From assembly GCF_010211755.1 (NCBI RefSeq), contig NZ_PDWR01000021.1, forward strand, positions 1 to 64,000: a stretch of 64,000 nt of DNA, written 5' to 3'. Shown here in pieces: positions 9,148 through 35,637 of this stretch. Source of the stretch: Pseudoxanthomonas sangjuensis (GTDB taxonomy: Bacteria > Pseudomonadota > Gammaproteobacteria > Xanthomonadales > Xanthomonadaceae). Made by a program: the position numbers and the translations under genes. The notes beneath the pieces are model-generated. The model did not search any database. It saw only the letters and a program-made list of their open reading frames with translations, and was not told the DNA's origin. The stretch's first letter is position 1. Each line of letters opens with the position of its first letter.

Positions 9148-9153
9148 CTTCCC

Positions 9154-9274
9154 TGCCCCCCCTGTTTGGATCACTGATTGCTGCCCGGCCGCCACGAAGG
9201 ACGAACGGCACGCACCGCACCGCTTCGTTAACCCGAAACCACGAGCCTTGCCCCCCCCTGAAACAGGGGGGGCA
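9154..9274 (-). promoter_or_regulatory. 5' UTR with two mutually exclusive stems, one sequestering the RBS
   Basis: Arms CCCCCCCTG (9252-9260) and CAGGGGGGG (9264-9272) form a 9-bp hairpin with a 3-base loop. In addition, TGCCCCCCCTGTTT (9154-9167) is the exact reverse complement of AAACAGGGGGGGCA (9261-9274). A 14-bp long-range helix can therefore form in the minus-strand transcript instead. The proximal arm lies only 7-20 nt before the ATG and covers the G-rich ribosome binding region. The two structures share one arm and exclude each other. That this controls translation is inference. Confidence 0.55.
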
Positions 9275-9448
9275 TGCTCATTCGGGCTTTCTTGTCGGGC
9301 TTGCAGGCGCTTCCATCCTCTCCCCCACTAGCCCAAGACCGGAGCGACGCACGAGACACCCTAATCCCCTTGGTCGACTCGCGATATCGGGAAAAGTCTT
9401 AGCTGGGACTAGATACGGGCCAAGTATCCAGCCACACCGCGCGTTTTT

Positions 9449-9622: not shown

Positions 9623-11245
9623 TCAGGCATTGGGCATCAGGTGCTGCCTGAACTGCTCGCGCAAGCGGTTCTTCTGCATCTTGCCGGTCGCGCCCAGCGG
9701 AATGGCGTCGACCAAGACGACGTCGTCGGGGATCCACCAGCGCGCGACCTTCCCTTCGAAATGCGCGAGCATCTCGTCGCGGCCGGGCTCCTCGCCCGGC
9801 TTCGGGACGATCACCAGCAGCGGCCGCTCGTCCCACTTCGGATGGGGCACGCCGATGCACGCGGCCATCGCCACCTTGGGGTGCGCCATGGCGATGTTCT
9901 CCAGGTCGATCGAACCGATCCATTCGCCGCCGGACTTGATCACGTCCTTGGCACGGTCGGTGATCTGCATGTAGCCGTACGCGTCGATCGTGCTGACGTC
10001 GCCCGTCGGAAACCAGCCGTCGATGCAGGGGTCGGGGCCGCGCAGGTACTTCGCGAGCACCCAGTGCCCGCGCACCAGCAACTCGCCGGAGGTCTTGCCG
10101 TCCCAGGGCAGCTCCCCGCCGTCGGCGTCGACGATCTTCATGTCCACGCCGAACGGCACCCTGCCCTGCTTGGACTGGATGGCCAGGCGCTGCTTGCCAC
10201 CCAGCGCAGCCAATTCCGGCTTGAGCGAACACGCGGTCCCGATCGGACTCAGCTCGGTCATGCCCCATGCGTGCAGGACTTCCACGCCATGGTGTTCCTG
10301 GAATGCGTCGAGCATGGCCGGCGGGCACGCGGCGCCGCCGATGACGGTGCGGCGCATCGTGGAGAAATGCAGGTCGTTGGCTTCGACATGCGCCAGCAGC
10401 GCCTGCCAGACCGTCGGCACGCCGGCGGTCAGGGTCACGCCTTCGGCTTCGAACAGCTCGTACAGCGACTTGCCGTCCAGCGCCGGGCCGGGGAACACCA
10501 GCTTCGCTCCGACCATGCATGCCATGTAGGGGATGCCCCACGCGTTGACATGGAACATCGGCACCACCGGGAGCACGGTTTCCCGCGCGGACATGTCCAG
10601 CACGTCCGGCAACGCGCCGGCCATGGTATGCAGGACGGTCGAACGATGGCTGTACAGCACGCCCTTCGGGTTGCCCGTGGTCCCGGACGTGTAGCAGAGC
10701 GACGACGCGCGATTCTCGTCGAACTCGGGCCACGCGTAGTCGTCGCCGTGGCCGTCGCACAGGTCTTCGTAGCACAGCAACCCGGGAATGCCGGTTTCCG
10801 CTGGCATGTGCGCCCGGTCGCTCATCAGCACGAAGTGGCGGACGCTCGGCAACCGCGCGGCCACCGCCTCGACCAGCGGCAGGAAGGTCGAATCGAAGCA
10901 CAGGACCCCGTCCTGCGCATCCCCCACGATCCAGGCCAGCTGGTCCGGATGCAAGCGGGGATTGAGCGTGTGCAACACCGCGCCGGAGCCCGAAACCGCG
11001 TAGTACAGCTCCATGTGCCGGTAGCCGTTCCAGGCCAGCGTGGCCACGCGGTCGCCGGACGCGACGCCCAGCGCCTCCATGGCCCTGGCCATGCGCCGCG
11101 CGCGCGCGGCCAGGTCGCGGTACGTGTAGCGATGGATGTCGCCTTCCACGCGGCGCGACACGATTTCCCGTTCGCCGTGATGGCGCTCCGCGTGCCGGAG
11201 CAATGCCGAGATCAGCAGCGGCTGCTGCATCATCAGGCCGTTCAT
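9623..11245 (-). CDS. AlkK-type medium/long-chain acyl-CoA ligase
   Basis: This 540-aa ANL-superfamily enzyme would adenylate a carboxylic acid and transfer it to CoA. The P-loop-like motif [11 protein letters not shown] lies near residues 186-196. The GMTE motif near residue 335, the GWFPTGD motif, and a C-terminal GKMQK with the catalytic lysine are all present. The sequence resembles the AlkK/FadD3-like group rather than E. coli FadD. The ATG has a GAGGA ribosome site 7 nt upstream. It is the last gene of the nine-gene operon, 24 bp after the sulfatase maturase. In this context it may activate the acid or side chain left after desulfation. The true substrate cannot be read from sequence. 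Confidence 0.85.
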
Positions 11246-11269
11246 CGATATGTCCTCGTCTGGTTCATG

Positions 11270-12553
11270 TCAGCGTGTCCCGGGGGCGTGCGGGGCCGGT
11301 CGCTTCCGCACGACCAGCGGACCGTCGAAGGCGTCCATCACCGCCGACGCGGGCAAGCCCGCCGCGAGCAGTTGCGCCATCGCGTTCATGTACTGCGTGA
11401 TGTGGCGAAAATACTTCAGGTAGCCCGCGCACAGATAGTTCCATCCCGGCTCGCCGTCCGGCGATGCGAGGAAGCGGTTCTTCGGGCATTCGCCGTTGCA
11501 GGCGAAACGGTAGTCGCAGCGCCGGCAGATGCCGGGCAGCGCCTCTTCCTTCGCCGCGCCGAAGTCGCGCTGCTTCGCCGAGGCCATCAGCGCCGCCGCG
11601 TCGGTCTCGCGCAGGTTGCCGAGGCGGTATTCCGGATACATGTAGTGGTCGCAGGAATACACACTGCCGTCGTGCTCGACGATCGCCGCCTTGCCGCAAC
11701 GCGGCGCGAACAGGCAGACCGTCGCCGACAGCTGGCACCAGGCCGCGAGCGCCCATTCGAAGTTCATCACGTGCACCGTGCCGACGTCGCGGCGCACCCA
11801 TTCATCGAAGACCGCGATCAGGAAATCGCCATAGGCGGCGGATTCGACGCTCTGCGGCGTCAGCTCCGGCGGCGCGCCGGCCGCCCCGCCGGCTTCCGGC
11901 GGCGTCGCGAAGGTCTGGCCGCGCTGCCGGTCGGCCGGCGTCGGCAGGCGCTCGACCACGGGATTGAACTGGATGTGGCGCACGCCCTGCTCTTTCAGGA
12001 AGCGGTAGACCTCCAGCGGCTGCCGCGAGGCCTCGCGCGATACGGTGACCAGCACGTTGTAGTCGACCCCGTGCCGCTGCAGCAACGCAAGCCCGCGCAT
12101 CGCATCGTCGAAACTGGAACGGCCGCGCTTGTCGTAGCGGTGCAGGCCGTGCAGCTCGCGCGGGCCGTCCAGGCTGACCCCGACGGTGAAGCGCTCGCGC
12201 GCCAGGAAGGCGCACCAGTCTTCGTCGAGCAGCGTGCCGTTGGTCTGCAGCGTGTTGCGGACGGTCTTGCCGCCGGCGTATTCGCGCTGCAGGCGAACCG
12301 CCTCCTCGAAGAACCCGAGCCCCATCAGCGTCGGCTCGCCGCCCTGCCAGGTGAACTCGACCTCCGGCGTTGGCTGCGCGGCGATGTAGCTGCGCACGTA
12401 TGCGCGCAACGTCTCGCCGGACATGCGGAATTTCGTGCGTGGCGCGTGCAGCCGCTCCTTTTCCAGATAGAAGCAGTAGTCGCAGTCGAGGTTGCAGACC
12501 GGCCCGACCGGCTTGGCCATCAGGTGCAGGCCCTGCTCCACGGGCTCGGACAT
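11270..12553 (-). CDS. anaerobic sulfatase-maturating radical SAM enzyme
   Basis: The protein has 427 aa. The radical SAM cluster motif CxxxCxxC is formed by Cys20, Cys24 and Cys27 (CNLDCDYC). The C-terminal half carries the cysteine-rich SPASM-type region, including YSCDHYMYPEYR and CRRCDYRFACNGECPK. anSME enzymes convert a serine or cysteine in a sulfatase to the formylglycine catalytic residue in the cytosol before export. The sulfatase directly upstream has a serine at that position, the type that depends on this family. The start has an AGGAGAA ribosome site. The gap from the sulfatase stop is 10 bp, so the two are cotranscribed. Confidence is high for the family and good for the partner. 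Confidence 0.9.
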   Translation of the reverse strand: MSEPVEQGLHLMAKPVGPVCNLDCDYCFYLEKERLHAPRTKFRMSGETLRAYVRSYIAAQPTPEVEFTWQGGEPTLMGLGFFEEAVRLQREYAGGKTVRNTLQTNGTLLDEDWCAFLARERFTVGVSLDGPRELHGLHRYDKRGRSSFDDAMRGLALLQRHGVDYNVLVTVSREASRQPLEVYRFLKEQGVRHIQFNPVVERLPTPADRQRGQTFATPPEAGGAAGAPPELTPQSVESAAYGDFLIAVFDEWVRRDVGTVHVMNFEWALAAWCQLSATVCLFAPRCGKAAIVEHDGSVYSCDHYMYPEYRLGNLRETDAAALMASAKQRDFGAAKEEALPGICRRCDYRFACNGECPKNRFLASPDGEPGWNYLCAGYLKYFRHITQYMNAMAQLLAAGLPASAVMDAFDGPLVVRKRPAPHAPGTR

Positions 12554-12563
12554 GCGCGTTCTC

Positions 12564-14918
12564 CTACGGCGCGTAGCGAACGTGCACGTCGTGCACGCTG
12601 CCCGTGAACGCGAACGGAGCGCGCTCGAGGTAGGTCAGCGACACCGACGAACCGAGATCCGCGCCGACGTCGAAAGTCTCGGTCGCGGTGAACGCCAGCG
12701 GCGCGGTGAACGGCGTGGTCGCCGTCGCGACCTCGATGCCGTCGATGCGCAACGTCAGTTGCGCGGGCGCGGCGAGCTTGGCCGCGGTCATCGCCGTCTC
12801 GACCTCGATGCGATGCCGGCCGGCAGGCAGGGGCTGCGGCGAACGCAGTTTCGTCGTCGCGACCACCATGCCGTTGTACTCGTAGAAGGCGTACCCGCCG
12901 TCGAAATACAGCGCGACGCCGCCGGACCGCCCGCCGAGCGCGTAGACGACGCCGCTGGCCTGCGCCGGCACGTCCAGGTCCACGGCGACGACGCTGTTGC
13001 GCGCGCGCAGATTCGGCGCCGCGAACTCGGGCAGGCGCTGCGTCAACGCGCTGAAATGCCACTCCTTCAGGCCACTGCCGATGCGCTGGCCCGGGTACAG
13101 GAACGGGACGAAGCCGGCGCCGATCGGGTAAACCTTGTTGGCGCGCGCCTCGCGGTCGAACAGCGCCTGCATCTCGGCGAGCTTCTGCGGTTGCGCGGCC
13201 GCGAGGTCGACCGCCTGCGAATAATCGCCGTCGAGGCGATACAGCGTCCAGACGTCCTCGTCGGGATTCCACGTGCGCAGCGCCTCGAACGATCCGGGCT
13301 TCCACGGCACGCGCGGACCGAACACCGAAGCCATCCATCCGTCGGCGTAGATGCCGCGGCTGCCGAAGACCTCGAAGTACTGCGCCGGCTTGGTGCCGGC
13401 GGCGCGCGCGTTGCCGAAGCTGTAGCGCATGCTGACGCCGTCGAGCGGGTCCTGGGCGATGCCGTCGACCGCCTCCGGCGGCACGATGCCGACGACGTCG
13501 TAGATCGTCGGCACGATGTCGTTGACATGATGGAACTGCGTGCGCACCTTCGCGTCCGGCTTGATCGCGCGCGGCCACGACACCGCCAGCGGCGCGCGCG
13601 TGCCGCCGAAATAGCCGGCGACCAGCTTGGTGCCCTGGAACGGCGTCATGCCGGCCCAGGCCCAGGCGCCGTGGTACATCGACTCGAGCAGCGGCGTGCC
13701 GAGCGCGTCGAGCCCGCCATAGTCACGCTCGAGCACGGCCATCTGTTGCGCCGTGCTTACCGGAATGCCGTTCTGCGTCAGCAGCTCGTTGATCGTGCCG
13801 GACTGCCCCTCCGCGGATGCGCCGTTGTCGGAGAACACGTAGAAGATCAGCGTGTTTTCGCGCAGGCCCAGGCGCTCCAGTTCGTCGACGATGCGGCCGG
13901 CCTGGGTATCCGTGTGTTCGAGGAAGCCGGCGTAGACCTCCATCAACCGCGCCTGGAACTTGCGCTCCTCGGCCGACAGGCTGTCCCAGGCCGGCAGCGA
14001 ATCGGGGCGCGGCGTCAGCTTGGCGTCTTTCGGGATCCAGCCCAGCGCCTTCTGGCGCTTGAACGTTTCTTCGCGGTAGACGTCCCAGCCCCGGTCGAAC
14101 CGGCCCTTGTACTTCTCCGTCCAGCTCCTGAACACCTGGTGCGGGCCGTGCACCGCGCCCGGCGTCCAGTACAGGAAGAAGGGCTTGCCCGGCGCCTCGC
14201 TGTGCTGGCGGCGCAACCAGTCCACGGCCTGCGTCGCCAGGTCTTCGGTCAGGTGGTAGCCCGCGTCGCGCGGCGGCTCGACCGGCGTGTGGTCGCGGAA
14301 CAGGCGCGGCTCGTACTGCGAGGTCTCGCCGCCGAGGAAGCCGTAGAAGTGCTCGAAACCATAGGACGTCGGCCAGTGGTCGAACGGCCCCGTCGCACCG
14401 GTTTCATTGGCCGGCGTGTTGTGCCACTTGCCGAACGCGGCCGTGCTGTAGCCGTAGTCCTTCAGCACTTCGGCGACGGTGGCGCTGCTCTTGGGGATCG
14501 TGCCGGTGTAGCCGTCGAAGTCGCTGGCCAGCTCGGTGATCGTCCCGCTGCCGACGCGGTGGTGGTTGCGCCCGGTCAGCAGCGCCGCGCGCGTCGCCGA
14601 GCTGATCGCCGTGGTGTGGAAGGCGTTGTAGCGGATACCGCTGTCGGCGATGCGCGTCAGCGTCGGCGTGTGGATCGGTCCGCCGACGGTGTCGGCCTGG
14701 GCGAAGCCGGCGTCGTCGAGCATGATGACGACGATGTTCGGCGCATCCGCCGGCAGCCGCGAGACCTGCGGCCGCCACTGGTGCTTGGATTCGGCCAGCG
14801 TGCGGCCGGCCTGGCTGGCCGAAGGCTCGGGCGGGAATGGCAGCGTTGCCTGCGCGCTGGCGGTGCCGGCGGCGGAACCCAGCGCCAGCATGGCCAGCGA
14901 AATCGGGGTCTTCTTCAT
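12564..14918 (-). CDS. exported Ser-type arylsulfatase family enzyme
   Basis: The 784-aa sulfatase has an N-terminal Sec signal peptide (cleavage after ASA near residue 22). The metal-site start IVVIMLDDAGF is at residues 62-72. The modification motif is S-S-A-T-R (Ser106-Arg110) followed by AALLTGR, matching [CS]-x-[PA]-x-R-x4-TG. Ser106 would become formylglycine through the adjacent radical SAM enzyme. The first 560 residues are the sulfatase domain; the last 220 look like a beta-rich accessory domain. The ATG is chosen because it gives the signal peptide and overlaps the RND gene stop as ATGA. A much longer frame runs upstream, but it is a shadow of the RND gene. The substrate, probably a periplasmic organic sulfate ester, is unknown. 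Confidence 0.9.
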   Translation of the reverse strand: MKKTPISLAMLALGSAAGTASAQATLPFPPEPSASQAGRTLAESKHQWRPQVSRLPADAPNIVVIMLDDAGFAQADTVGGPIHTPTLTRIADSGIRYNAFHTTAISSATRAALLTGRNHHRVGSGTITELASDFDGYTGTIPKSSATVAEVLKDYGYSTAAFGKWHNTPANETGATGPFDHWPTSYGFEHFYGFLGGETSQYEPRLFRDHTPVEPPRDAGYHLTEDLATQAVDWLRRQHSEAPGKPFFLYWTPGAVHGPHQVFRSWTEKYKGRFDRGWDVYREETFKRQKALGWIPKDAKLTPRPDSLPAWDSLSAEERKFQARLMEVYAGFLEHTDTQAGRIVDELERLGLRENTLIFYVFSDNGASAEGQSGTINELLTQNGIPVSTAQQMAVLERDYGGLDALGTPLLESMYHGAWAWAGMTPFQGTKLVAGYFGGTRAPLAVSWPRAIKPDAKVRTQFHHVNDIVPTIYDVVGIVPPEAVDGIAQDPLDGVSMRYSFGNARAAGTKPAQYFEVFGSRGIYADGWMASVFGPRVPWKPGSFEALRTWNPDEDVWTLYRLDGDYSQAVDLAAAQPQKLAEMQALFDREARANKVYPIGAGFVPFLYPGQRIGSGLKEWHFSALTQRLPEFAAPNLRARNSVVAVDLDVPAQASGVVYALGGRSGGVALYFDGGYAFYEYNGMVVATTKLRSPQPLPAGRHRIEVETAMTAAKLAAPAQLTLRIDGIEVATATTPFTAPLAFTATETFDVGADLGSSVSLTYLERAPFAFTGSVHDVHVRYAP

Positions 14919-17374
14919 GCTTGTGCTCCTGCGACCTGCGCCGTGGCACGGACGGCCGGTGTCGGATTGAGAAGGAAGTGGGAGAGCGCCGGGATCAGCA
15001 CCAGCGCACCGACCATGTTCAACAGGAACATGAAGGTCAGCAGCACGCCCATGTCCGCCTGGAACTTGATCGGCGAGAAGGCCCACGTCACCACGCCCGC
15101 GGCCAGCGTCACGCCGACGAGGGCGACGACGCGGCCGGTGAAGCGCAGCGCTTCGCGATAGGCCTGCGCCAGGTCGAGGCCGCGGCGTTGCGCCGCCAGC
15201 TGTACCGACAGCAGGTACAGCGCGTAGTCGACGCCGATGCCCACGCCCGTCGCGATCACCGGCAGCGTCGCCACCTTGACGCCGATGCCGAGCCAGACCA
15301 TCAGCGCTTCGCACAGGATCGAGGTGAGCGCGAGCGGCACCACCGCGACGATCACCGCGCGCCAGGAGCGGAACGTCACCAGGCAGAGGACGATCACCGT
15401 GGCGTACACGTAGAACAGGATGCTGCGGTTGGCCTTGCGCACGACGATGTTCGTGACCGCCTCGATGCCCGCCGAACCGGCGACCGGAAGCACCTGCAAC
15501 TGCGCGGGGTCGGTCGGGTTCTCCTTGACGAAGCGTTCGACGGCGCCCAGCGCGCTTTGCAGCGTGGTGGCCTTGTGGTCCGAGAGGAAGGCGATCAGCG
15601 GCATCACCGAGCAATCGGTGTTGAACAGCTCGGGGTTGTTCACCGACGCCTGCTGCGCGCCGTAGTTGAGGATGTCCTGGTTGCGGCTGATGGTCAGCCA
15701 CTTCGGGTTGCCTTCGAACGAACCGGCGGTGATCTGGCGCACCACGTCGGCCAGGCCGAGCGTGGCCTGCACCTGCGGCACCTGCTTCAGCTCCCAGGCG
15801 ATGCGGTCGACGTGGGCGAGCGTCTCGTACTTCAGGCAGCCTTCCGGCGGCGTCTTCACGATCACCGCGAACACGTCGCTGGTCAGCCCGTAGTGGCGCG
15901 TGATGTAGGCGTTGTCGCGGTTGTAGCGCGAGTCCGCGCGCAGCTCCGGCGCGCCCGGATCCAGGTCGCCGGTCTGCAGGCGCAGGCTCGCGAGGTAGCC
16001 GCCCGCCCCCAGCACCGCCGCGACCGCCAGCGCCGCGGCCGCCCAGCGCCGGCGCGACGCGAAGTAGCCGAGCCAGCGCCAGATGCGGCCGGTTTCGCCG
16101 AGCGCGTCGCGCCGTTCCACCTCCAGGCTGCGCTGCGCCGCCCTGGCGCCGACGCCGAAGTAGCTGAGCAGCACCGGCAGCAGCAGCAGGTTGGTGAACA
16201 CCAGCGCGGCGAAACCCAGGCTCGCGGTCAGCGCGAGCTCGCGGATGACCGGGATCGGGATCAGCACCAGCAGCGCGAAGCCGGCCGCGTCGCTGAGCAG
16301 CGCGGTCACGCCGGGCAGGAACAGGCGTCGGAACGTGTAGCGCGCGGCCACCAGGCGGTGGGTGCCGCGGCCGATGTCCTGCATGATGCCGTTCATCTTC
16401 TGCGCGCCGTGGCTCACGCCGATGGCGAAGATCAGGAACGGCACCAGCATCGAATACGGGTCGATTTCCAGGCCGGCCAGCGCGACCAGTCCGCACTGCC
16501 ACAGCACCGCGAGCAGCGAGCACGCCAGCACCAGCAGGGTGCTGCGCACGCAGCGCGTATACCAGTACAGCAGCGCCGCCGCGATCAGGATCGCCGCGAG
16601 GAAGTACGCCATCACGTTGAGCAGGCCGGCGATCAGGTCGCCGACGATCTTGGCGAAGCCGACCACGTGGATGCGCACTGCCCGCGACTTGCCGTCGTTC
16701 GCCGTGCCCTGTTCGTAGCGGCTGCGGATCTTCTCGACCGCCGTCGACAGCGCGCGATAGTCCAGCCGCCGCCCTTCCGCATCCTGCTCCAGCAGCGGCA
16801 GCACGATGGCGCTCGACCTGAGGTCGCCCGCCACCAGGCTGCCCACCAACCCGCCGCGGGTAATGTTCAGGCGCAGTTGCTCGATGCTCTCGGGCGAACC
16901 GTCGTAGCTGTCGGGCATCACCGGGCCGCCCTGGAATCCCTCCTCGGTGACTTCGGTCCAGCGCACCGCGGGCGACCACAGCGACTTCACCCAGGCGCGG
17001 TCGACGCCCTCGGTCAGGAACAGTTCGTCGTTGATCTGGCGCAGCGTTTCGAGATAGCGCGGATCGAAGATGTCGCCATCAGGGTTCTCCACCACGATGC
17101 GCAGCGTGTTGCCCATGCCGCGCAGTTCGTCGCGGTTGGAGAGGAAGTTCTGGATGTAGGGATGATCGACCGGGATCATCTTCACGAAACTGGCGTTGAG
17201 CTTCACGCCGGTGGCCATGAAGCCCAGCACCAGCGTGAGCAAACCCGTGAACAGCAGCAACGCCATGCGGTGGTTGAACACCAGCCGCTCCAGCAGGTTG
17301 CCGGAGTTGCGCGGGAAGTCTTCCAGCGAGCGCACCACCGGCATGGTGTCGTGGTCGTTCGGCTTGATGCTCAT
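14915..17374 (-). CDS. RND/MMPL-family membrane transporter
   Basis: This 819-aa integral membrane protein has the RND/MMPL layout. A first transmembrane helix lies near residues 37-56. A periplasmic loop reaches to about residue 240. Five clustered helices follow (AYFLAAILIAAALLYWY, then LEIDPYSMLVPFLIFAIGVSHG). A second loop and a second helix cluster complete the protein. Members move lipophilic molecules across or within the envelope. It overlaps the upstream YCF48-like gene by 4 nt and the downstream sulfatase by ATGA, implying translational coupling. With DUF1302, DUF1329 and YCF48 partners it probably forms an import or envelope-handling system for the sulfated substrate. Direction of transport is inferred, not shown. 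Confidence 0.85.
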   Translation of the reverse strand: MSIKPNDHDTMPVVRSLEDFPRNSGNLLERLVFNHRMALLLFTGLLTLVLGFMATGVKLNASFVKMIPVDHPYIQNFLSNRDELRGMGNTLRIVVENPDGDIFDPRYLETLRQINDELFLTEGVDRAWVKSLWSPAVRWTEVTEEGFQGGPVMPDSYDGSPESIEQLRLNITRGGLVGSLVAGDLRSSAIVLPLLEQDAEGRRLDYRALSTAVEKIRSRYEQGTANDGKSRAVRIHVVGFAKIVGDLIAGLLNVMAYFLAAILIAAALLYWYTRCVRSTLLVLACSLLAVLWQCGLVALAGLEIDPYSMLVPFLIFAIGVSHGAQKMNGIMQDIGRGTHRLVAARYTFRRLFLPGVTALLSDAAGFALLVLIPIPVIRELALTASLGFAALVFTNLLLLPVLLSYFGVGARAAQRSLEVERRDALGETGRIWRWLGYFASRRRWAAAALAVAAVLGAGGYLASLRLQTGDLDPGAPELRADSRYNRDNAYITRHYGLTSDVFAVIVKTPPEGCLKYETLAHVDRIAWELKQVPQVQATLGLADVVRQITAGSFEGNPKWLTISRNQDILNYGAQQASVNNPELFNTDCSVMPLIAFLSDHKATTLQSALGAVERFVKENPTDPAQLQVLPVAGSAGIEAVTNIVVRKANRSILFYVYATVIVLCLVTFRSWRAVIVAVVPLALTSILCEALMVWLGIGVKVATLPVIATGVGIGVDYALYLLSVQLAAQRRGLDLAQAYREALRFTGRVVALVGVTLAAGVVTWAFSPIKFQADMGVLLTFMFLLNMVGALVLIPALSHFLLNPTPAVRATAQVAGAQA

Positions 17375-18453
17375 CGGGCCTTTTCCCTGTCGAAACGCTG
17401 CAGGCCGCGCGGCCCGCCCAGCACGATCGCCTGGCCCTGCAGTGCCAGCGCCGCGGCCGGTAGCGCCGCCGCCAGCGGCTGCGCGTGGAAGCCGTGGCCA
17501 CCATCCGTGCTGCGGGCAACCGCTCCGCTCTGGTCGGCCAGCCAGACCTCGCCGTCTTCGGTACGAACACCGGTGGTGATGCTGGCGTGCAGGCCAGAGT
17601 CGACCTGCTGCCAGGTGTCGCCGCGGTCGGTGCTGAGCCAGGCGTTGCCGCGCATGCCGAACGCCAGCAGGTTGTCCTGCGTGGCGACGAGGCCGAACCA
17701 GCTGCCCTCGTACGGCGAGGGCAGCGCGACGAAGCGCTGCTGTTCGGCCGACAGCCGCAGGAGCAGGCCGCCCTCGCCCGCGATGACCAGCGTCTCACCG
17801 ACCGGCCGGATCGCATACAGGTTGAACAGGCGCGGGTTGTCGGTGCGATCGAACCACGGCTGCCAGCTGCGCCCGCCGTCGGCGGTGTGGAAGATCAGGT
17901 TGTAGGCGCCGACGACGAAGCCTTCGTCGGGGCTGTCGAACCAGACGTCGAGGAAGGGCTTGTCTGGGCCGAGCCCGGCATTGCGCTTCGCTTCGTCCAG
18001 CAGCGCCTGGTTGGCGTCGGACGGATCCGCCGCAACGCGTTCCTGCATGTAGTCGACCAGCAGGCGGTTCGCCTGCCGGCCGTCGAGCACGCGCTTCCAT
18101 GACTGTCCGCCGTCTTCGCTGCGCAACACCACGCCGTCGTGCCCGACGGCGTGGCCGACGCGCGCGTCGACGAACTGCACGGCGGTGAGGTCGGACGAGA
18201 CCGGCACCTCCGACTGCGCCCAGGTTGCCCCGGAATCCGCGGAGACCAGCACGTGGCCGCGTTGTCCCACGGCCACCAGCCGCTCGCCCGCCGACGCGAT
18301 GCCGGTCACCAGCGCCCGCGGGGCGAGCGGGCTGATGCGCGCCGGGCGATCGAGCGGATCCGATCCGGCGTTCGCGGCCGGCGGCGCGGCGAACAGCAGC
18401 CCTGCGACTACCGCCCCCGCAGTCGCAATCAGAAGGCGCGGCACGACGATCAC
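17371..18453 (-). CDS. YCF48/BNR-type beta-propeller exported protein
   Basis: This 360-aa protein has a signal peptide (hydrophobic core near residues 6-23, cleavage after ANA). Repeats of the YCF48/BNR type follow, such as SADSGATW, SEDGGQSW, TADGGRSW, STDRGDTW and STDGGHGF, each a blade signature. Proteins of this family act as assembly or scaffold factors. In many proteobacterial catabolic clusters they sit beside RND, DUF1302 and DUF1329 genes, as here. The start codon is GTG, overlapping the DUF1329 stop as GTGA, and the stop overlaps the RND start. The specific partner is inferred from context. Confidence 0.8.
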   Translation of the reverse strand: MIVVPRLLIATAGAVVAGLLFAAPPAANAGSDPLDRPARISPLAPRALVTGIASAGERLVAVGQRGHVLVSADSGATWAQSEVPVSSDLTAVQFVDARVGHAVGHDGVVLRSEDGGQSWKRVLDGRQANRLLVDYMQERVAADPSDANQALLDEAKRNAGLGPDKPFLDVWFDSPDEGFVVGAYNLIFHTADGGRSWQPWFDRTDNPRLFNLYAIRPVGETLVIAGEGGLLLRLSAEQQRFVALPSPYEGSWFGLVATQDNLLAFGMRGNAWLSTDRGDTWQQVDSGLHASITTGVRTEDGEVWLADQSGAVARSTDGGHGFHAQPLAAALPAAALALQGQAIVLGGPRGLQRFDREKAR

Positions 18454-19817
18454 CGGATGCCGGCTCCCGCCAATCCGTCCGGCGTCCAGGCCGAGTTCGA
18501 CAGCGGCTTGATGAACTTCAGGCCGACGTCGTAGGCGCCCAGCAGGCCGGTGATGTTGTAGCCGCCGCCGATGAAGTCGTGGAACGACTGCGCGGACGCC
18601 GACGGCGCCGGCAGGTCATACGACGGATTGGTGTAGACGAAGCCGGAACGGAACAGCTGCCCGCGGGCGTCGTACTGGTCGGAGGCCACCGCGATCCACG
18701 AATCCTCGTCGATGTAGAACACGCGCTTGGCGTAGATGTGGCGCTTGCCCGGCTTCAGCGTGGCCTCGACCACCCACACGCGATGCAGTTCCCAGCGCAC
18801 GTTATCGGGATTGACGTGGCCCGGCGTGGTCGCCGCGTACGGATCCTTGGCGTAGACCAGCTTGAAGCTGTTGTAGGGGATCAGCATTTCGCGCTTGCCC
18901 AGCAGCTTCCAGTCGTAGCGGTCCATGGCGCCGTTGAACACCCACGCTTCGTCGTAGGTCGAACGGCCCATCGCGCCCGGGTTGGGCGTGTCGTAGGCGA
19001 TTTCCGGCGCGAGCTTGACCCGGCGCTGGCCCGGCAGGTACTGCCAGGCCTTGCGGCCGAACTTCGTCGGGTTGATGTAGTCCTGCGCCAGCAGCGCTTC
19101 GCCCGCGCGGCGCGCCGGCGCCGTGTAGGCGATCTTGGTGCGGAAGTAGACGTCGTTCGGCGCGGACTGTCCCTTGCGATCCGGCGCGTAGTACGGATAG
19201 TCGACGTAGATCTCGCCGGTCGTGGCCAGCACCGCCTTGCCCGCCGGATTCACGTTGATCGAGTCGTACTTGGTGAAGTACGTCGATCCGTTGAAACGCA
19301 GCAGGTGGTTCCACATCACTTCCTGGCCCGTCTTCGGGATCGGGAACGGGAAGCCCGCGTACGTGCCCTGCAGGCCCAGGCCGCCGTCGGTGGTGCTCAC
19401 CGATTCGGCGTTCCTGCGCGTGTTGGCCAGCACGAAGTCCGGGAACGCCATCGAGCGATGCGTCGGATAGACGTCGACGCGCATGGTCTTGGGATAGCGG
19501 CGCAGCATCTCCTGCGTTCCGGCGGTCAGGAACTTCGCGTACTTCGCCAGATCGGCCGCGTGGACCGAATACAGCGGCTTCTCGCCCGCCCAGGGATCGG
19601 GGCGTACGCCGGAGCCGGCCTTGTAACCCGCCGGCGCGCGGGCGAGTCCGCCCTCGTAGGCGGGAATGGTGCCCTCGGCGTTGCCCGCCTTCTCCGCGCC
19701 GACGGCGGTCAGCGTGGTGCCCAGCCGCTGGGCTTCGTCGGCGCTCACGGCGGCCAGGGCGCTGCCGGAGGCGAGCGCGGCCAGCAGGCCGGCGCACAGG
19801 TATCGGAATTGGTTCAT
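18450..19817 (-). CDS. DUF1329 outer-membrane-associated protein
   Basis: This 455-aa protein has a clear signal peptide (cleavage after ALA near residue 23). The body is typical of DUF1329, a LolA/LolB-like fold family, with conserved-looking stretches such as GTIPAYEGG, YDTPNPGAMG and WELHRVWVVEATLKPG. Members usually accompany DUF1302 barrels and RND pumps, and a role in lipid or hydrophobic ligand handling has been proposed from the fold. The ATG is preceded by a GGAGAGA ribosome site. The frame extends far upstream without a start that would make sense, because it shadows DUF1302. The gap to DUF1302 is 20 bp. Confidence 0.85.
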   Translation of the reverse strand: MNQFRYLCAGLLAALASGSALAAVSADEAQRLGTTLTAVGAEKAGNAEGTIPAYEGGLARAPAGYKAGSGVRPDPWAGEKPLYSVHAADLAKYAKFLTAGTQEMLRRYPKTMRVDVYPTHRSMAFPDFVLANTRRNAESVSTTDGGLGLQGTYAGFPFPIPKTGQEVMWNHLLRFNGSTYFTKYDSINVNPAGKAVLATTGEIYVDYPYYAPDRKGQSAPNDVYFRTKIAYTAPARRAGEALLAQDYINPTKFGRKAWQYLPGQRRVKLAPEIAYDTPNPGAMGRSTYDEAWVFNGAMDRYDWKLLGKREMLIPYNSFKLVYAKDPYAATTPGHVNPDNVRWELHRVWVVEATLKPGKRHIYAKRVFYIDEDSWIAVASDQYDARGQLFRSGFVYTNPSYDLPAPSASAQSFHDFIGGGYNITGLLGAYDVGLKFIKPLSNSAWTPDGLAGAGIR

Positions 19818-19837
19818 TTCGTCTCTCCGCGGTTCGA

Positions 19838-21661
19838 TCAGAACGTGGTCTTGTAGGTCAGCAGCACATGGTCGCGATCCGACAGCACCGCGTTGGTGCC
19901 GTTGGGCACGTTCATCGCGCCCGATGCCGTACGGGTGTAGTCGCCGTAGAAGCCGACATAGCGCAACGCGACGTTGTGGCGCGCCTGGATGTCGGCGGCG
20001 ATACCGACCGAGAAGGAACCCGCCTGCTCGTTGCCGCCCGACAGCACGGCCGAGTTGCCCGACAGGCCCGCCGACCACGCGGTCGGCATGGACAGGTCCA
20101 CGCCTGGCATGACCTGGTACCAGGTGGGCGTAAAGGTCAGGTTGATGCCGAAGTAGTCCTTGCTGACCGCGTCGATGTTCGCCGGATTGCCGCGATACGC
20201 AGCCGACCCCTTGAACGCGCCCGGGTTGTGCGTGACCTTGTCCCAGCGGTTCCACGCCAGTTCGGCGCCCCACGACGCGGAGTCGAACAGCGGCGTTTCG
20301 GAAACCAGGCCCAGCAGGTTCACCACGCCGTGCAGCGTGTTGCCGCGCGCACCGGGCGCGTTGCCGTCGAGGTCGTCGATGGCGACCTGGCCGGCGGCGC
20401 GATTGACCAGCGGCGCGGGAAGCACGGTCACCGGCACGCTCTGCAGCGGCATGTTGCGGCGATAGCTCAGTTCGGCGCCCAGGCTCAGCGAGCCGACCTG
20501 CCTGCTCAGGCTCCAGCCGTAGATGTCGATGTCCTGGCCGAAGTAGACGTCGTAGCGGCCGACCTGGCCGGCGAGGATCTGCGGCACGCTGGCCGCCGCC
20601 GGGTTGATGTAGCAGGTGTTGGGAGCCAGCGGCGTCAGGCCGACGGCGCTGCACGTCGCGGCGGGCACGGCCGCCACCGCCGGCGTCACCGTCAGCTGCG
20701 GCTGGATGTCCGTGGCGCGACGCACGTACAGGCCGGTGGTGCCGCCACCCAGCCATTCCGGGCTCCAGCGCGCCATCAGGCCCCAGTCGCCGTGCTTCTT
20801 CGGCTCGTGGATATCGCCCGCCAGCAGGCGCTGGCCAGGGCCGATGACCAGCGAGTCGCCGCCGCGCAGCAGCGCGTCGTTGACCGTCAGGTAGCTGCCC
20901 GATTCCGGATAGCGGGCTTCTTCCCAGTCGAAGAAGGCCTGCAGGCCGATGGTGAGCTGCGTCGTCGGCTGCACCTGCAGCGTCACCGACGTGCGCGGGC
21001 GGAACAGTTCCTTCGCCTCGATGCCGGGCGTGGCCAGCGCCTTCCACAGGTCGAGCGAGTACTGGCCGTAGGAGATGCCGTGGATGGCGCCGCCACCGAA
21101 CAGGCTCTCGCCCCAGTACGCGGTGTGGCGGCCTGCGCGCAGGCTGACCGGCACGCTGCCGATGTCGCCGTGCGCGAATACGAACGCGTCCAGCAGTTCG
21201 CCCGAAGCGCCGCGCGCATAGCGGTCGGCATAAGACGACAGTTCGCCGGCGACCGGAGCGCCGCCGTCATCCAGGGTATTGGCCGTGGCGGCGTTGCGGT
21301 TGTCCAGCGATTGGTAGGCATGGTCGTACCAGGCGGTGCCGCTGACGCGGAAGCCGAAGCTGTCGCGGACCGTCACGTCGAATTCGCTGAGCAGGTCCAG
21401 GCGATTGGCCACGAGGCTGTTGCGATCGAAATTGCGGTCGCCGTCGTCGTAGTTCGGATTGGCCAGGATCGCGCCGTCCTGCTTCTCGGTGCGGATGCCG
21501 AGGTTGTAGCGGATGGTGTTGTCCCAGCGCACCACGACATCCGGGTTGCCGGTGCCGATCTCGGCAGCCTGCGCCGCGGGAGCGAACGACAGGGCGATGG
21601 CCGCCGCGAGCGACAGGCGATGGATCTTCGGGAAACGCAAATGGCGATCGTTGGGGATCAC
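19838..21661 (-). CDS. DUF1302 outer-membrane beta-barrel protein
   Basis: The protein has 607 aa. A signal peptide (cleavage after AQA near residue 32) precedes long amphipathic strands of alternating aromatic residues. The protein ends in phenylalanine (HVLLTYKTTF), the usual sorting signal for outer-membrane barrels. DUF1302 members are porin-like and often lie beside DUF1329, so uptake of a hydrophobic substrate is the likely role. A GTG start is chosen because CAGGAG sits 5 nt upstream and the signal peptide begins there. A small disulfide may form in the loop holding Cys residues near position 345-358. Substrate unknown. Confidence 0.85.
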   Translation of the reverse strand: MIPNDRHLRFPKIHRLSLAAAIALSFAPAAQAAEIGTGNPDVVVRWDNTIRYNLGIRTEKQDGAILANPNYDDGDRNFDRNSLVANRLDLLSEFDVTVRDSFGFRVSGTAWYDHAYQSLDNRNAATANTLDDGGAPVAGELSSYADRYARGASGELLDAFVFAHGDIGSVPVSLRAGRHTAYWGESLFGGGAIHGISYGQYSLDLWKALATPGIEAKELFRPRTSVTLQVQPTTQLTIGLQAFFDWEEARYPESGSYLTVNDALLRGGDSLVIGPGQRLLAGDIHEPKKHGDWGLMARWSPEWLGGGTTGLYVRRATDIQPQLTVTPAVAAVPAATCSAVGLTPLAPNTCYINPAAASVPQILAGQVGRYDVYFGQDIDIYGWSLSRQVGSLSLGAELSYRRNMPLQSVPVTVLPAPLVNRAAGQVAIDDLDGNAPGARGNTLHGVVNLLGLVSETPLFDSASWGAELAWNRWDKVTHNPGAFKGSAAYRGNPANIDAVSKDYFGINLTFTPTWYQVMPGVDLSMPTAWSAGLSGNSAVLSGGNEQAGSFSVGIAADIQARHNVALRYVGFYGDYTRTASGAMNVPNGTNAVLSDRDHVLLTYKTTF

Positions 21662-21710
21662 GGGAACTCCTGTGGTTGTTTTGTAGCGGAGCCGGTGTGG
21701 GGTTCCGGAA

Positions 21711-22553
21711 TCAGACGAAGCCGACGCGGCGCGCGTCCTGCAACATCAGGCGCTGCGCCAGTCGTCGCGAGCAGCGACGCAAGTAGTAGAGGGGAGCCGC
21801 GAATGGGCCGACCAGCACGAGCTCGCGCCGCTGTCGCACGCCGCGCACGATCGCATCGGCGACCACGTCGGGCCGGCCGCCCTGCTTCGCGTAGTACGCC
21901 GTGAGGCGCTCGTACTGCGCATCGCCGATCGACGCGGCGACACTGGCGCGGGCCTTCGTGATCTGGGTATTGATGATGCCGGGGCAGACCGTCGTCACCC
22001 CGACCTGCGCACCCTTGAGCTTCAGCTCGAGGCACAGGCTTTCGCCCAGGCCCACCACCGCATGCTTCACCGCGGCGTACGCGCTCATGTTGGGCGCAGC
22101 CACCAATCCGGCCAGCGACGCGACGTTGACGATGCGGCGCTCTCCCCCTGCGCCGACCATGTCGGGCAAGAAGGCGCGACAACCGTTCACCACGCCCATG
22201 AGGTTGACCTGCAACACCCTTTCCCAGGCCTCGACCGGCGTGTCCATGAACGAGCCGAGGTAGCCGATGCCGGCATTGTTGACCAGCACATCCAGCGCCG
22301 GGATGCGGATTTCGCTGCGCACCCACCGGGCCAGATCCGCCATCGCCTTCGCATCGGCAACGTTCACGACCCGGGTGGCGCAATCCCGCCCCAGCGCCAG
22401 CACCTCGTCGCACGCCTTCTGCAGCGCCCGATCGTCGATGTCGACCAGCACGAGGTTGGCGCCGGCCCTGGCGAACGCCAGGGCCGTGGCGCGACCGATG
22501 CCGGAAGCGGCTCCCGTCACGAGGACCCAGCCCGCGCACTCTCCCCTGCGCAT
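21711..22553 (-). CDS. short-chain dehydrogenase/reductase (SDR)
   Basis: The 280-aa classical SDR has the NAD(P) motif TGAASGIG near residues 14-21, the structural NNAGIG motif, and the catalytic Ser with Tyr-x3-Lys (SAYAAVK). The aspartate in VLVDIDD after the second strand favours NAD over NADP. I chose the ATG at 22553 because GAGG stands 8 nt before it. A TTG at 22571 would add six residues and overlap the cupin gene. It would oxidise a hydroxyl or reduce a ketone on the substrate handled by this operon, possibly the alcohol released by the sulfatase. That link is inference. Confidence 0.85.
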   Translation of the reverse strand: MRRGECAGWVLVTGAASGIGRATALAFARAGANLVLVDIDDRALQKACDEVLALGRDCATRVVNVADAKAMADLARWVRSEIRIPALDVLVNNAGIGYLGSFMDTPVEAWERVLQVNLMGVVNGCRAFLPDMVGAGGERRIVNVASLAGLVAAPNMSAYAAVKHAVVGLGESLCLELKLKGAQVGVTTVCPGIINTQITKARASVAASIGDAQYERLTAYYAKQGGRPDVVADAIVRGVRQRRELVLVGPFAAPLYYLRRCSRRLAQRLMLQDARRVGFV

Positions 22554-22563
22554 GCCTGCGGCC

Positions 22564-23034
22564 TCAGCCAAAAGCCGTCAGGTCCCGGGGCGTGATGCCG
22601 GCCTGCTCGCAGTAGGACAGATAGCGCTGCAGCCCGGTCTTCCAGTTTTCGATGGCCAGCACCTGGCCGTTCGCATCGAGGAAGATCAGGTCGCCCACCA
22701 CGATGTTCAGCACGACGACCTGGCCTTCGTCGCCGACCGCTTCCGGCGTGTGGCTGGACGCGGCGGTTTCGAACACGACGCTGCCCGGGCCGGCGATCCA
22801 GTCGTGCTCCTTGTACTTCCAGCGTCCCTCGATCGTGTAGACGATGACGGTGCCAGAATGGTGGTGGCGCGGCAGTTCCATGCCCGCTGGCGCCTTCATC
22901 AGCACGATCATCTCGCCGCGGATCGGATCGAGCTTGAAATACTTCAGGTAGACGTCGTTCGTATAGGGCGCGAAGGGCACCCAGGGCAGCGCTTCGTCGT
23001 CCATTACCGAAACATGGACCTGCTCGTGATACAT
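22564..23034 (-). CDS. cupin protein, dihydroxyacetophenone-dioxygenase-like
   Basis: The product is 156 aa when started at the ATG at 23034, which has AGGAGGG 5 nt upstream. A further ATG-like start six codons upstream lies before that ribosome site and is rejected. The cupin signature is RHHHSGTVIVYTIEG (three histidines and the Gly turn) with the second motif near PGSVVFETAASSHT. The sequence recalls 2,4'-dihydroxyacetophenone dioxygenase-family cupins, small metal enzymes that cleave carbon-carbon bonds. This is the first gene of the nine-gene operon. It could also be a non-catalytic ligand-binding cupin. Confidence 0.75.
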   Translation of the reverse strand: MYHEQVHVSVMDDEALPWVPFAPYTNDVYLKYFKLDPIRGEMIVLMKAPAGMELPRHHHSGTVIVYTIEGRWKYKEHDWIAGPGSVVFETAASSHTPEAVGDEGQVVVLNIVVGDLIFLDANGQVLAIENWKTGLQRYLSYCEQAGITPRDLTAFG

Positions 23035-23237
23035 GAATCCCTCCTGTGGCATGCGTGGCTGCCGCCGACTAGAATCCGCCGGCAGCGGGCTATGTCTTTC
23101 CGGGAAAACCCGGGCCGGGATACACCGGTAGTACCATGGTCAGCGGAAGCATCGGAGTTGCGCGAGGTCCGGTAACGACATCTTCCTGTCAGTTCTCGAC
23201 AGCCGCGAAGTTCCGGACAAGCAAGGGGGAGACCGCC
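23035..23237. promoter_or_regulatory. divergent promoter region between cupin operon and AraC gene
   Basis: This 203-bp gap must hold the promoter of the 13.4-kb operon (leftward) and of the AraC regulator (rightward). I see nested dyads: CTGTC (23186-23190) with GACAG (23198-23202), and GTCCGG (23167-23172) with CCGGAC (23213-23218). Both are candidate regulator sites. No -35/-10 pair is convincing by eye. Confidence 0.4.
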
Positions 23238-24287
23238 ATGAACACAGCGCGCAGGGTTCCAGTCCGGTACCTGGTCCTGCTTCGCGATTGGCTCCAGGCC
23301 CATGGAGTCGATACGGTCGCCCTGCTGCGCATGGCGGACATCGCCAGCGCAAAGTTCGACCAGCGCGACGCCGCGCTGGAACCGATGGAAGTGGAGGCTT
23401 TCATCGCCAGCGCGCGCCAGCTGACGGGCCACAGCGATCTCGGCTTCGAGCTCGGCCGGCTGATAAAGATGACCTCGCACGACCTGCTCGGCTACGGCAT
23501 GCTCAGCTGCCGGAACATCGACGAGGTGATGCGCCTGGTGATGCGGCACTACCACCTCATGACCGAGACCTTCTCCTTTCGCTACCAGCGCGAGCCGGCG
23601 GGCGCGGGCGAAGTGGTCTACGCACCGACGATCGCGATGCCGCTGGAGATGCTGCGCTTCTACCTGGAGACCCTGGCGGTCGCGCACGACAACCAGCTGC
23701 GCTCGATGCTGGGCGGCAGCGGCGGCGGACTCGACATCTTCGTATCGATGCCGCCGCCTCCGCACATCGCGCGCTATCGCGCATTGGCGCCGACGCGGTT
23801 CCATTTCGACGAGGGCTCCCTGCCCAGCGTGCGCGTGGTCATGGGACCGGACGTCCTCGACCACCCATTGCCGTTCGCCGACGTCCACCAGATGCGGGAA
23901 ATCGACCGGCGTTGCGAGGCCATGGGCCAGCGGCCACGCAGCACCAGCCAGGACTGGGTCGAATACTTGCGCATGATGATCCGGCAGTCCGACGGGCAGG
24001 CGCCGACGCTGGAGAGCATTGCCCAGAGCAACAGGGTTTCCCCGCGTACCATCGACCGCTATTTGCGGCGGGAGAACCTGAGCTTCCGGGAACTCCTGCA
24101 GCAGGTGCGCTTCGAGCGCGCCTGCGAACTGCTTCTGGGCTCCGACACCACCGTTTCGCAGATCGCCGTGCGGCTTGGCTTCAGCGATTCGGCGAACTTC
24201 GGCCGCGCCTTCCGGCGCGCCATTGGAGTGACTCCCACCGAATACCGCCGGCGCGCCAAAGAGAGGCACGGTGGCCTTTCTTCATAG
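23238..24287 (+). CDS. AraC-family regulator with arabinose-binding-like N-domain
   Basis: The 349-aa protein starts at the ATG preceded by AAGGGGGAGA. A longer frame begins at 23136 but lacks a ribosome site. Residues about 20-200 resemble the PF12625 effector domain (for example TGHSDLGFELG, LLGYGMLSCRNIDEVMRL). The C-terminal 100 residues form the AraC double helix-turn-helix, with SNRVSPRTIDRYLRRENLSF and VSQIAVRLGFSDSANFGRAF followed by the GVTPTEYRR signature. It is divergent from the sulfatase/RND operon and is the likely activator of it, probably sensing a hydrophobic ligand or its breakdown product. The ligand is unknown. Confidence 0.9.
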   Translation: MNTARRVPVRYLVLLRDWLQAHGVDTVALLRMADIASAKFDQRDAALEPMEVEAFIASARQLTGHSDLGFELGRLIKMTSHDLLGYGMLSCRNIDEVMRLVMRHYHLMTETFSFRYQREPAGAGEVVYAPTIAMPLEMLRFYLETLAVAHDNQLRSMLGGSGGGLDIFVSMPPPPHIARYRALAPTRFHFDEGSLPSVRVVMGPDVLDHPLPFADVHQMREIDRRCEAMGQRPRSTSQDWVEYLRMMIRQSDGQAPTLESIAQSNRVSPRTIDRYLRRENLSFRELLQQVRFERACELLLGSDTTVSQIAVRLGFSDSANFGRAFRRAIGVTPTEYRRRAKERHGGLSS

Positions 24288-27694: not shown

Positions 27695-28116
27695 TTCTTC
27701 CCGGCTGCGGCCCGGGCGGCCAGCCGGCGCACGGCCACCACGTACTCGGCGAATTCCAGCTTCTGGTCGTGGTTGGCATCGAATCCCGCCAGCGCCGGCG
27801 CGGACTTGCCCGCGCGCCTGACCAGTTCCAGGTTGGCGTACTCGCCGGCCTCGATCGCGCCGCTATGGTCGGCATCCAGCGCCTGGAACTGCTCGCGCAG
27901 GCGCAACTCGAGCGCGATCGCGCGCGCCAGACCCGGATAGCCGGCCTGGAATTCCTGCCGCGACAGCGTGCCGTCCTTGTTGGTGTCGAGCGCGGCGAAG
28001 ATGGCCCCGGTCCCGGCCTGCGGCTGCGTACCCGCAGCGGGAACCGCGGCCTGCGCAGCAGCGGCCGCTGCCATGAGCAGTCCGGCGACGGTCGCGGTGA
28101 ACGTGTTCGTCCTCAT
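27691..28116 (-). CDS. secreted EF-hand calcium-binding protein
   Basis: The 141-aa product has a signal peptide (MRTNTF..., cleavage after QAA near residue 24). Three EF-hand-like loops follow: DTNKDGTLSRQEF, DADHSGAIEAGEY and DANHDQKLEFAEY. The first two fit the D-x-[DN]-x-[DS]-G pattern; the third has Q in place of the glycine. It is likely a periplasmic or secreted calcium-binding protein. The ATG overlaps the stop of the upstream gene as ATGA, and its own stop overlaps the next gene. The longer open frame upstream is a shadow of that neighbour. Confidence 0.85.
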   Translation of the reverse strand: MRTNTFTATVAGLLMAAAAAAQAAVPAAGTQPQAGTGAIFAALDTNKDGTLSRQEFQAGYPGLARAIALELRLREQFQALDADHSGAIEAGEYANLELVRRAGKSAPALAGFDANHDQKLEFAEYVVAVRRLAARAAAGKK

Positions 28117-29339: not shown

Positions 29340-29412
29340 TTACTGCCACTCCTCGAACCCGGCCGGGATCCCGACCGCAACTTGCTGAAATTCGCCGGCA
29401 CCACCGACGCGC

Positions 29413-29437
29413 GCTCCGGAGGCTACTCCTCCGGAGC
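29413..29437. terminator. perfect 10-bp hairpin downstream of autotransporter
   Basis: Arms GCTCCGGAGG (29413-29422) and CCTCCGGAGC (29428-29437) are perfect complements around a 5-base loop. No T-run follows on the minus strand, so this may stabilise the mRNA end or attenuate readthrough into the TIGR03032-like gene. Confidence 0.5.
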
Positions 29438-29458
29438 CACGCGTTGGCGTGCCGCCGG

Positions 29459-29488
29459 TCGGCCGGCGGAAAAAATCCGGCCGGCCGA
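29459..29488 (-). terminator. terminator-like hairpin just after autotransporter stop
   Basis: Outer arms TCGGCCGG (29459-29466) and CCGGCCGA (29481-29488) enclose an inner stem CGGA/TCCG with an A-rich loop and one bulged base. It begins 10 bp after the stop codon of the 2030-aa autotransporter. The loop, not the tail, carries the T-run on the transcript, so intrinsic termination is uncertain. Confidence 0.5.
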
Positions 29489-29497
29489 TCTACCCGC

Positions 29498-35590: not shown

Positions 35591-35637
35591 TACTTCCCCT
35601 GGGCGGATGTGTTTGTTGTCAACAGGCGTATTGCGCG

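Follow-up and report, generated by a model that had tools for sequence, protein, structure and literature searches.

The window analysed here is a 64,000-nucleotide stretch of Pseudoxanthomonas sangjuensis DNA (contig NZ_PDWR01000021.1), and the system in question is a set of nine minus-strand genes at 9623-23034 (Table 1). All nine families that a first-pass annotation had named for this set were confirmed by Pfam and NCBIfam searches. In the order of transcription the genes encode a cupin, a short-chain dehydrogenase/reductase (SDR), a DUF1302 barrel, a DUF1329 protein, a YCF48-type propeller, an RND transporter, an exported sulfatase, an anaerobic sulfatase maturase (anSME) and an acyl-CoA ligase. 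Since the widest intergenic gap is about 50 bases and adjoining genes share 4 bases at three junctions (DUF1329/YCF48, YCF48/RND and RND/sulfatase), the nine genes very probably form one operon; at the last of these junctions the sulfatase ATG at 14918, preceded by AGGAG, overlaps the RND stop codon (ATGA). No sigma-70-like site was found on the operon strand, a result of little weight at 66-69% GC. The DUF1302, DUF1329, YCF48 and RND genes stand together in the order of AmeABCD of Castellaniella defragrans and are called the Ame genes below. From its position, the divergent AraC-type gene is probably the regulator of the operon, and homologs of its product are found at two of the SATR loci described below (L051, 422 bits; L041, 393 bits).

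Table 1. Genes of the operon and its putative regulator
Product	Position	Strand	Supporting matches
Cupin, ChrR/2,4'-dihydroxyacetophenone-dioxygenase-like	22564..23034	-	Cupin_7 50 bits; ATG start with AGGAGG ahead
Short-chain dehydrogenase/reductase (SDR)	21711..22553 (alternative TTG start at 22571)	-	adh_short 173 bits
DUF1302 outer-membrane barrel, AmeA-like	19838..21661	-	PF06980 360 bits
DUF1329 periplasmic LolA-like protein, AmeB-like	18450..19817	-	PF07044 466 bits; LolA_like 37 bits
YCF48-type propeller, AmeC-like	17371..18453	-	PSII_BNR 76 bits
HAE3/MMPL RND transporter, AmeD-like	14915..17374	-	MMPL 68 bits; HAE3 model TIGR00921 155 bits (under its cut-off of 352)
Exported Ser-type sulfatase, SSATR clade, C-terminal beta domain	12564..14918	-	PF00884 204 bits
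Anaerobic sulfatase maturase (anSME; radical SAM, SPASM)	11270..12553	-	TIGR03942 475 bits (cut-off 349)
Acyl-CoA ligase (AMP-binding), AlkK/DmdB-like	9623..11245	-	NF005426 938 bits (cut-off 822)
Divergent AraC-type regulator	23136..24287	+	Arabinose_bd and HTH_18

The sulfatase, its clade and its partners

The sulfatase had been described as exported and of the Ser type, and it is both: a Sec-type leader is apparent by direct reading, and the active-site motif is SSATR. Throughout the clade to which it belongs (hereafter the SATR clade) the third position of the canonical C/S-x-P-x-R motif is occupied by Ala; variant C/S-x-A-x-R sulfatases are known. In an alignment with the P. aeruginosa arylsulfatase (PAS) the window enzyme keeps D63, D64, S101, R105, K159, H161, H252, D359, N360 and K426 (numbered on a 779-residue form, five less than when counted from the ATG), which we take to be the formylglycine position, the metal ligands and the catalytic Lys, His and Arg. 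Except for the choice of Ser or Cys, these active-site residues are invariant in 34 aligned rows. The AlphaFold model of the sulfatase has a predicted local distance difference test score (pLDDT) of 85.9, and its nearest fold is that of PAS (4cys/1hdh). The enzyme belongs to PF00884 and does not have the metallo-beta-lactamase fold with alkylsulfatase dimerisation domain, so it is not of the SdsA type. In the same 34 rows and numbering, P103A, Y185H, I309L, I356V and H431Y separate the 18 SATR from the 16 SPTR sequences. Residues 412-433 are poorly modelled; they may shape the pocket. Two weaker sulfatase matches lie on another contig of the same genome.

From 585 loci with homologous sulfatases the best 80 were surveyed, and these comprise 27 [C/S]SATR loci and 53 others, a split that uses the sulfatase that drew in each locus and motif classes assigned by hand (three weaker extra sulfatase rows had no recognised motif). 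Neighbouring families were counted within the fetched stretch at phmmer scores above 150 bits, and Ame was scored when at least two of its four genes were present. The 27 SATR sulfatases and the window sulfatase form one clade with a FastTree support of 99. In the contrasts that follow, whose Fisher values are not true probabilities since the locus rows are related, Ame genes lie near 16 of the 27 SATR-clade sulfatases and near one of the 53 others (L086), anSME near 13 and none, the cupin near 14 and none, a thiolase near 11 and none, and a GMC oxidoreductase near 9 and none, respectively; DUF1254 is not clade-specific (5/27 versus 7/53). Loci shorter than 15 kb, which make up 2 of the 27 and 21 of the 53, weaken the comparison; when only loci of at least 20 kb are counted, Ame genes are present at 15 of 24 SATR loci and 1 of 27 others.

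The co-occurrence of the nine families, for which the first-pass annotation had suggested a homology search, was recovered for eight of the nine, which lie within about 10 kb of the sulfatase at eight Pseudomonas loci (L022, L024, L025, L026, L028, L030, L035 and L036). Variovorax and Roseateles loci carry subsets of the nine in other gene orders. In Pseudomonas the Ame genes lie on the opposite strand and run towards cupin-sulfatase-anSME, in Variovorax they are situated upstream and on the same strand, and in Roseateles (L051) sulfatase-anSME occupies one strand while the SDR, the cupin and the Ame genes occupy the other; unlike these layouts, the window has all nine in a single operon. Since gene order varies among genera, the company has either been kept through rearrangement or been reassembled.

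Maturation and origin of the operon

Ser-type sulfatases should need anSME rather than FGE, and since its active-site residue is Ser the window sulfatase should share this requirement. The anSME gene of the operon is the only match in its own genome at E<=0.001, and two FGE-family matches are present there too. The 27 SATR-clade loci divide into 18 of the Ser type and nine of the Cys type, and an anSME gene adjoins the sulfatase in 13/18 and 0/9 of these, respectively. The Ser-type locus L023, which has no adjoining anSME, comes from the same strain as L022, which has one. In three of four further genomes tested (those of L078, L097 and L038) an anSME with 69-70% identity lies beyond the fetched stretch, and none was found in the fourth, a 3.0-Mb metagenome-assembled genome (MAG; L065). 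In the eight Cys-type genomes searched for an unlinked anSME, a search that did not take in L040, a close one is present in two, a distant one (35%) in one and none in five. Because the Ser/Cys residue largely tracks the anSME gene, the clade lends itself, as a natural experiment, to the study of switches between routes of sulfatase maturation.

The anSME of the Ralstonia MAG (L038) carries one in-frame TGA, and of two Rugamonas genomes one has seven matches to the Ame-type RND and the other five, three of these matches being interrupted by one or two in-frame stops. It is possible that these RND copies and the Ralstonia anSME are decaying copies or sequence errors.

The possibility had been raised that the sulfatase is a transient insertion absent from close relatives. 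It is indeed absent, as 36 genomes of the genus hold no member of the clade, their best match being a Cys-Pro type of 56% identity (G035) without Ame or anSME genes in the surrounding 20 kb; but the maturase and Ame genes are mostly missing as well. No close anSME was found in the 36 genomes, only weak matches of 25-30% identity, and the Ame cassette occurs in one of them (G031, RND 57% identical), with no sulfatase in the surrounding 20 kb. Since the maturase and Ame genes are missing along with the sulfatase, the gene distribution points to an acquired operon, not to a stray sulfatase in an old one, and the operon was most likely acquired. Among 369 genomes of the class (its own included) no other sulfatase match exceeded 57% identity at E<=1e-150, and no plasmid record carried a SATR sulfatase at >=60%, the best reaching 59.9%. 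Insertion of the sulfatase as a stray gene was rejected on account of the overlap of its start with the transporter stop and of the same partners in other genera.

On the far side of the AraC-type gene, a MalT-like LuxR regulator is encoded at 24424-27084 (+). Similar large LuxR regulators lie near the Ame cassettes of Azoarcus KH32C (37%) and of Caballeronia Lep1P3 and Pseudomonas MPC6 (27-28%), and this gene may be part of the system. Farther out are a very long open frame that reaches the window edge (1-9327, -), whose product has a type V secretion extended signal peptide and passenger-associated repeats and is probably, by these features, a giant autotransporter adhesin, and a gene for a DUF4915 protein adjoining an open frame of about 2000 residues (28113-35701, -).

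Substrate and direction of transport

The first-pass annotation had the operon oxidise an alcohol and activate an acid, and the related loci agree with this, since the later steps are encoded by neighbours there. At Paraburkholderia, Variovorax and Xenophilus loci (Cys-type) and at Ralstonia loci (Ser-type), the sulfatase is accompanied by genes, not all of them at each locus, for a GMC oxidoreductase, an aldehyde dehydrogenase (ALDH), a CoA-transferase, an enoyl-CoA hydratase, a thiolase, an acyl-CoA dehydrogenase (ACAD) and a ligase, which therefore suggest that an alcohol is oxidised to an acid, converted into a CoA ester and passed on to beta-oxidation. Other neighbours are an SdsA-type alkylsulfatase (L065) and FadL/TodX and DUF1254/DUF1214 proteins (L025). 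L041 encodes a flavin monooxygenase (FMO), which we infer to be Baeyer-Villiger-like, together with an alpha/beta hydrolase and an SDR, and the ligase next to them shares 68% identity with that of the window. Over the loci L025, L041 and L086, identity to the window ligase ranges from 58 to 73%; the name of the model that the window ligase passes, 3-(methylthio)propionyl-CoA ligase, need not be its function here. The closest solved chain to the cupin is 3ebr_A (an uncharacterised cupin, 224 bits), followed by 2,4'-dihydroxyacetophenone dioxygenase (DAD; 5bpx/4p9g, 57-59 bits). In the alignment with DAD (58.6 bits to 5bpx) an HxH and a later His align, so the His-rich metal site is matched.

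Taken together, these observations suggest that the operon is probably, if by no means certainly, a horizontally acquired catabolic set for a sulfated amphiphile, a lipophilic alcohol or alkyl-aromatic esterified with sulfate. The sequences establish which genes are present and how they are laid out, the sulfatase active-site residues and fold, the Ser-anSME pairing and the recurring linkage; the substrate, the direction of transport and the chemistry of the cupin and SDR are inferred. The anSME would convert the active-site Ser into formylglycine in the cytoplasm, and the sulfatase would then be exported and strip sulfate in the periplasm. Passage of the amphiphile, or of its product after desulfation, across the envelope would fall to the DUF1302 barrel, the DUF1329 carrier and the YCF48 and RND proteins. 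The freed alcohol would be oxidised by the SDR, a ketone or hydroxyketone may be cleaved by the cupin as a putative Fe dioxygenase, and the ligase would form a CoA thioester for beta-oxidation encoded elsewhere.

Ame cassettes on plasmids bear on this proposal from both sides. Nineteen annotated Ame regions were viewed with 9 kb on each side (12 kb for H21, H22, H23 and H28), the survey leaving out H30, H36, H42, H44, H45 and H43, the last of which is unannotated. Among the matches listed, the closest plasmid AmeD homologs are those of Azoarcus KH32C (66%) and P. aeruginosa H15 (64%), and both have a 'putative sulfate exporter' gene directly after the RND gene, which suggests surplus sulfate. 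KH32C also has a TauD/TfdA dioxygenase gene about 11 kb from the Ame cassette; H15 encodes a SulP sulfate permease, and at a greater distance lie genes for two TauD/TfdA dioxygenases and a sulfite dehydrogenase annotated as soxC. The two share an ACAD-DUF5938-ligase-thiolase block, whose DUF5938 protein and ligase are 73-78% identical to those of Pseudomonas L035. In Caballeronia Lep1P3 (AmeD 60%), an FGE-family gene lies beside the ligase, and about 12 kb away is an arylsulfatase without similarity to the window sulfatase at E<=1e-20. At L183 (P. aeruginosa H15 plasmid, 350000-399000) the Ame, sulfur and acyl-CoA genes are interspersed with transposase genes, and the region has the appearance of an island for the catabolism of alkyl sulfates or sulfonates.

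Several observations weigh against a dedicated set for sulfated amphiphiles. In 16 of the 19 plasmid regions no sulfur gene was seen within the 9-12 kb viewed, so Ame is better regarded as a general platform of which only some members are linked to organosulfur compounds. For the 11 SATR loci without linked Ame genes, an RND homolog of >=64% identity is present in only four genomes (in some with in-frame stops) and two lack any RND match at E<=1e-60, so the pairing of Ame and sulfatase is not obligatory. In a tree built without the plasmid rows and without L022, L023 and L051, which are split or cut off, all 15 of the AmeD rows linked to a sulfatase fall into a single clade, and their linkage may therefore go back to one event. 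The association of Ser with anSME appears strong from the sequences, though Cys-type hosts can hold the enzyme, as the close homologs (66-67%) in two of them indicate, and neither the SATR motif nor the pairing is clean outside the clade, where a Cys-type CSATR sulfatase (45%) adjoins an anSME-like gene of 43% identity (loci L006 and L169 of genome G058, which belongs to the same order). Lastly, the ameABCD deletion of C. defragrans was read as a loss of export, and growth of the mutant on perillyl alcohol, aldehyde and acid was reported to be normal (PMC6394551).

This last point supports a less probable but serious alternative, in which the Ame cassette is an efflux or tolerance system that expels a toxic lipophilic product or substrate, while porins or FadL admit the sulfated compound. 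The same study argues that AmeABCD exports monoterpenes, the deletion mutant having tolerated less monoterpene and accumulated more Nile Red, and also reports that an ameB insertion reduced growth on perillic acid (PMC6394551). A FadL/TodX homolog is found at 4 of the 27 SATR loci, which would suit such an entry; the operon has no TolC-type protein, which does not suit efflux. The uptake role that the first-pass annotation had assigned to these genes thus meets an argument for export from C. defragrans, and it gains from P. putida, where PP_0765, PP_0766, PP_2018 and PP_2019 (DUF1302, DUF1329, periplasmic and RND proteins) were needed on Tween-20 and a transport system was proposed, according to the available section of that work (PMC10866462). 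In the accessible parts of two further papers, an MMPL/LolA-domain protein and a porin were raised on C28 alkane in a study of alkane transport (PMC6304351), and DUF1302/DUF1329 genes lay within an aromatic degradation cluster (PMC7012976). With modest confidence, we lean towards inward movement by the Ame proteins. The predicted structures were also considered in this regard. The AlphaFold2 model of the DUF1302 protein is a beta barrel with a mean pLDDT of only 63, and the 50 matches listed for it include porins and AlgE at root-mean-square deviations of >=8 A, so the modelled fold indicates a barrel and does not serve as a test of import or export. The DUF1329 protein, the sole DUF1329 match in its genome, has no sequence match to solved structures at E<=0.01.

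One may go further and regard the operon as a sulfatase-gated uptake system, a joint proposal that we consider rather unlikely. The Ame conduit would import sulfated amphiphiles, the translationally coupled periplasmic sulfatase would cut the cargo in transit, and the alcohol, its charged head group lost, would be trapped on the DUF1329 carrier, making transport one-way. The [C/S]SATR clade and an AmeD subclade would, in this same low-probability proposal, make up a single organosulfate module in which different desulfurising enzymes could stand in for one another (Ser-sulfatase/anSME, Cys-sulfatase/FGE, SdsA-type and TauD/TfdA).

As regards the substrate of the proposed catabolic set, an aryl sulfate, for example hydroxyacetophenone-like or phenylpropanoid, which the cupin would cut to an aromatic acid, is possible although doubtful. 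The alignment of the cupin with DAD and its retained His positions, the putative Baeyer-Villiger-like FMO and hydrolase of L041, the arylsulfatase as nearest fold and an ALDH neighbour that matches MdlD benzaldehyde dehydrogenase below the cut-off all speak for it. However, the GMC, ALDH and beta-oxidation neighbours and the SdsA-type alkylsulfatase of L065 suit an aliphatic alcohol no less well, the HxH is missing from the cupin of Roseateles L051, and no aromatic-ring cleavage family was found among 30 neighbour proteins scanned by Pfam. The sterol and bile-acid sulfates that had been put forward as candidates find no backing in the same 30 proteins, among which there is no steroid-ring degradation family, and the ligase scores 164 bits against a steroid-24-oyl-CoA synthetase model with a cut-off of 750; a neighbouring thiolase does resemble lipid-transfer-type thiolases and an enoyl-CoA hydratase EchA19, all below the NCBIfam cut-offs, and we regard such substrates as very improbable. 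Many Pseudomonas sulfatases serve sulfur supply, and it is conceivable, if quite improbable, that this one frees sulfate under sulfur limitation, the carbon part being secondary. Against this, none of the nine products is a sulfate or sulfonate importer, sets of beta-oxidation genes are present at related loci, and the putative sulfate exporter accompanies the two plasmid cassettes that are closest among the matches listed; the SulP permease of H15 can be read either way.

Comparison with known systems

The combination had been thought undescribed. This does not hold for its envelope part, since the same four-gene module is AmeABCD of C. defragrans; for the recurring partnership of Ame with the sulfatase, no description was found in the open-access literature searched. 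Nor did that literature yield anything on DUF1302 together with a sulfatase; for DUF1329 with a sulfatase it led only to a study of the Pseudomonas aeruginosa pangenome, work on P. laurylsulfatiphila and on PP_0765/PP_2019 contributed nothing further about sulfatases, and the word 'sulfatase' is absent from the accessible text of the alkane transport study (PMC6304351). The component modules are known, and what appears to be new is the recurring combination of Ame, SATR sulfatase and anSME. DUF1302 and DUF1329 are without a settled function, and the operon ties both to a sulfatase whose reaction is readily assayed; it thereby offers a direct test of the direction of Ame-type transport, and it hints at a way in which sulfated surfactants, or sulfated lipids of natural origin, may be consumed by bacteria.

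The TauD/TfdA family includes alkylsulfatases, and these and the SdsA-type enzymes presumably do the same job, the removal of sulfate from alkyl sulfates. Besides the SdsA-type gene near the SATR sulfatase of L065, members of these families lie 11-18 kb from AmeD-close plasmid cassettes. Their folds and chemistry are unrelated to those of the window sulfatase, and none is encoded in the operon. With PAS, a type I (formylglycine) sulfatase, the window sulfatase shares the fold (TM score 0.85-0.87 on the PAS length) and the active-site residues; it differs in its sequence (about 29% identity), an extra C-terminal beta domain, the S-x-A-x-R in place of C-x-P-x-R, the predicted export and the expected dependence on anSME. 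The maturase resembles known anSMEs (4k36-4k39) in passing the TIGR03942 equivalog cut-off, in its SPASM domain and in the radical-SAM CxxxCxxC, which is kept in 8/8 operon-type rows. It differs from the C. perfringens enzyme in that Glu265, invariant in the same eight rows, replaces an Asp, presumably the catalytic Asp277, which is a conservative change.

For the envelope genes two counterparts can be named. The P. putida set likewise combines DUF1302, DUF1329, a periplasmic protein and an efflux-type transporter and is needed for the use of an amphiphile, Tween-20; it differs in being split between two separate loci and in that the compound is an ester, not a sulfate ester, and no sulfatase appears in the section on it (PMC10866462). 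AmeABCD of C. defragrans 65Phen is linked to monoterpene genes and was proposed to be an exporter, in a main text that does not contain the word sulfatase (PMC6394551). By family, it has the same DUF1302, DUF1329, YCF48-like and HAE3 RND proteins encoded in the same order, and it sits in a catabolic gene island for lipophilic compounds (PMC6394551).

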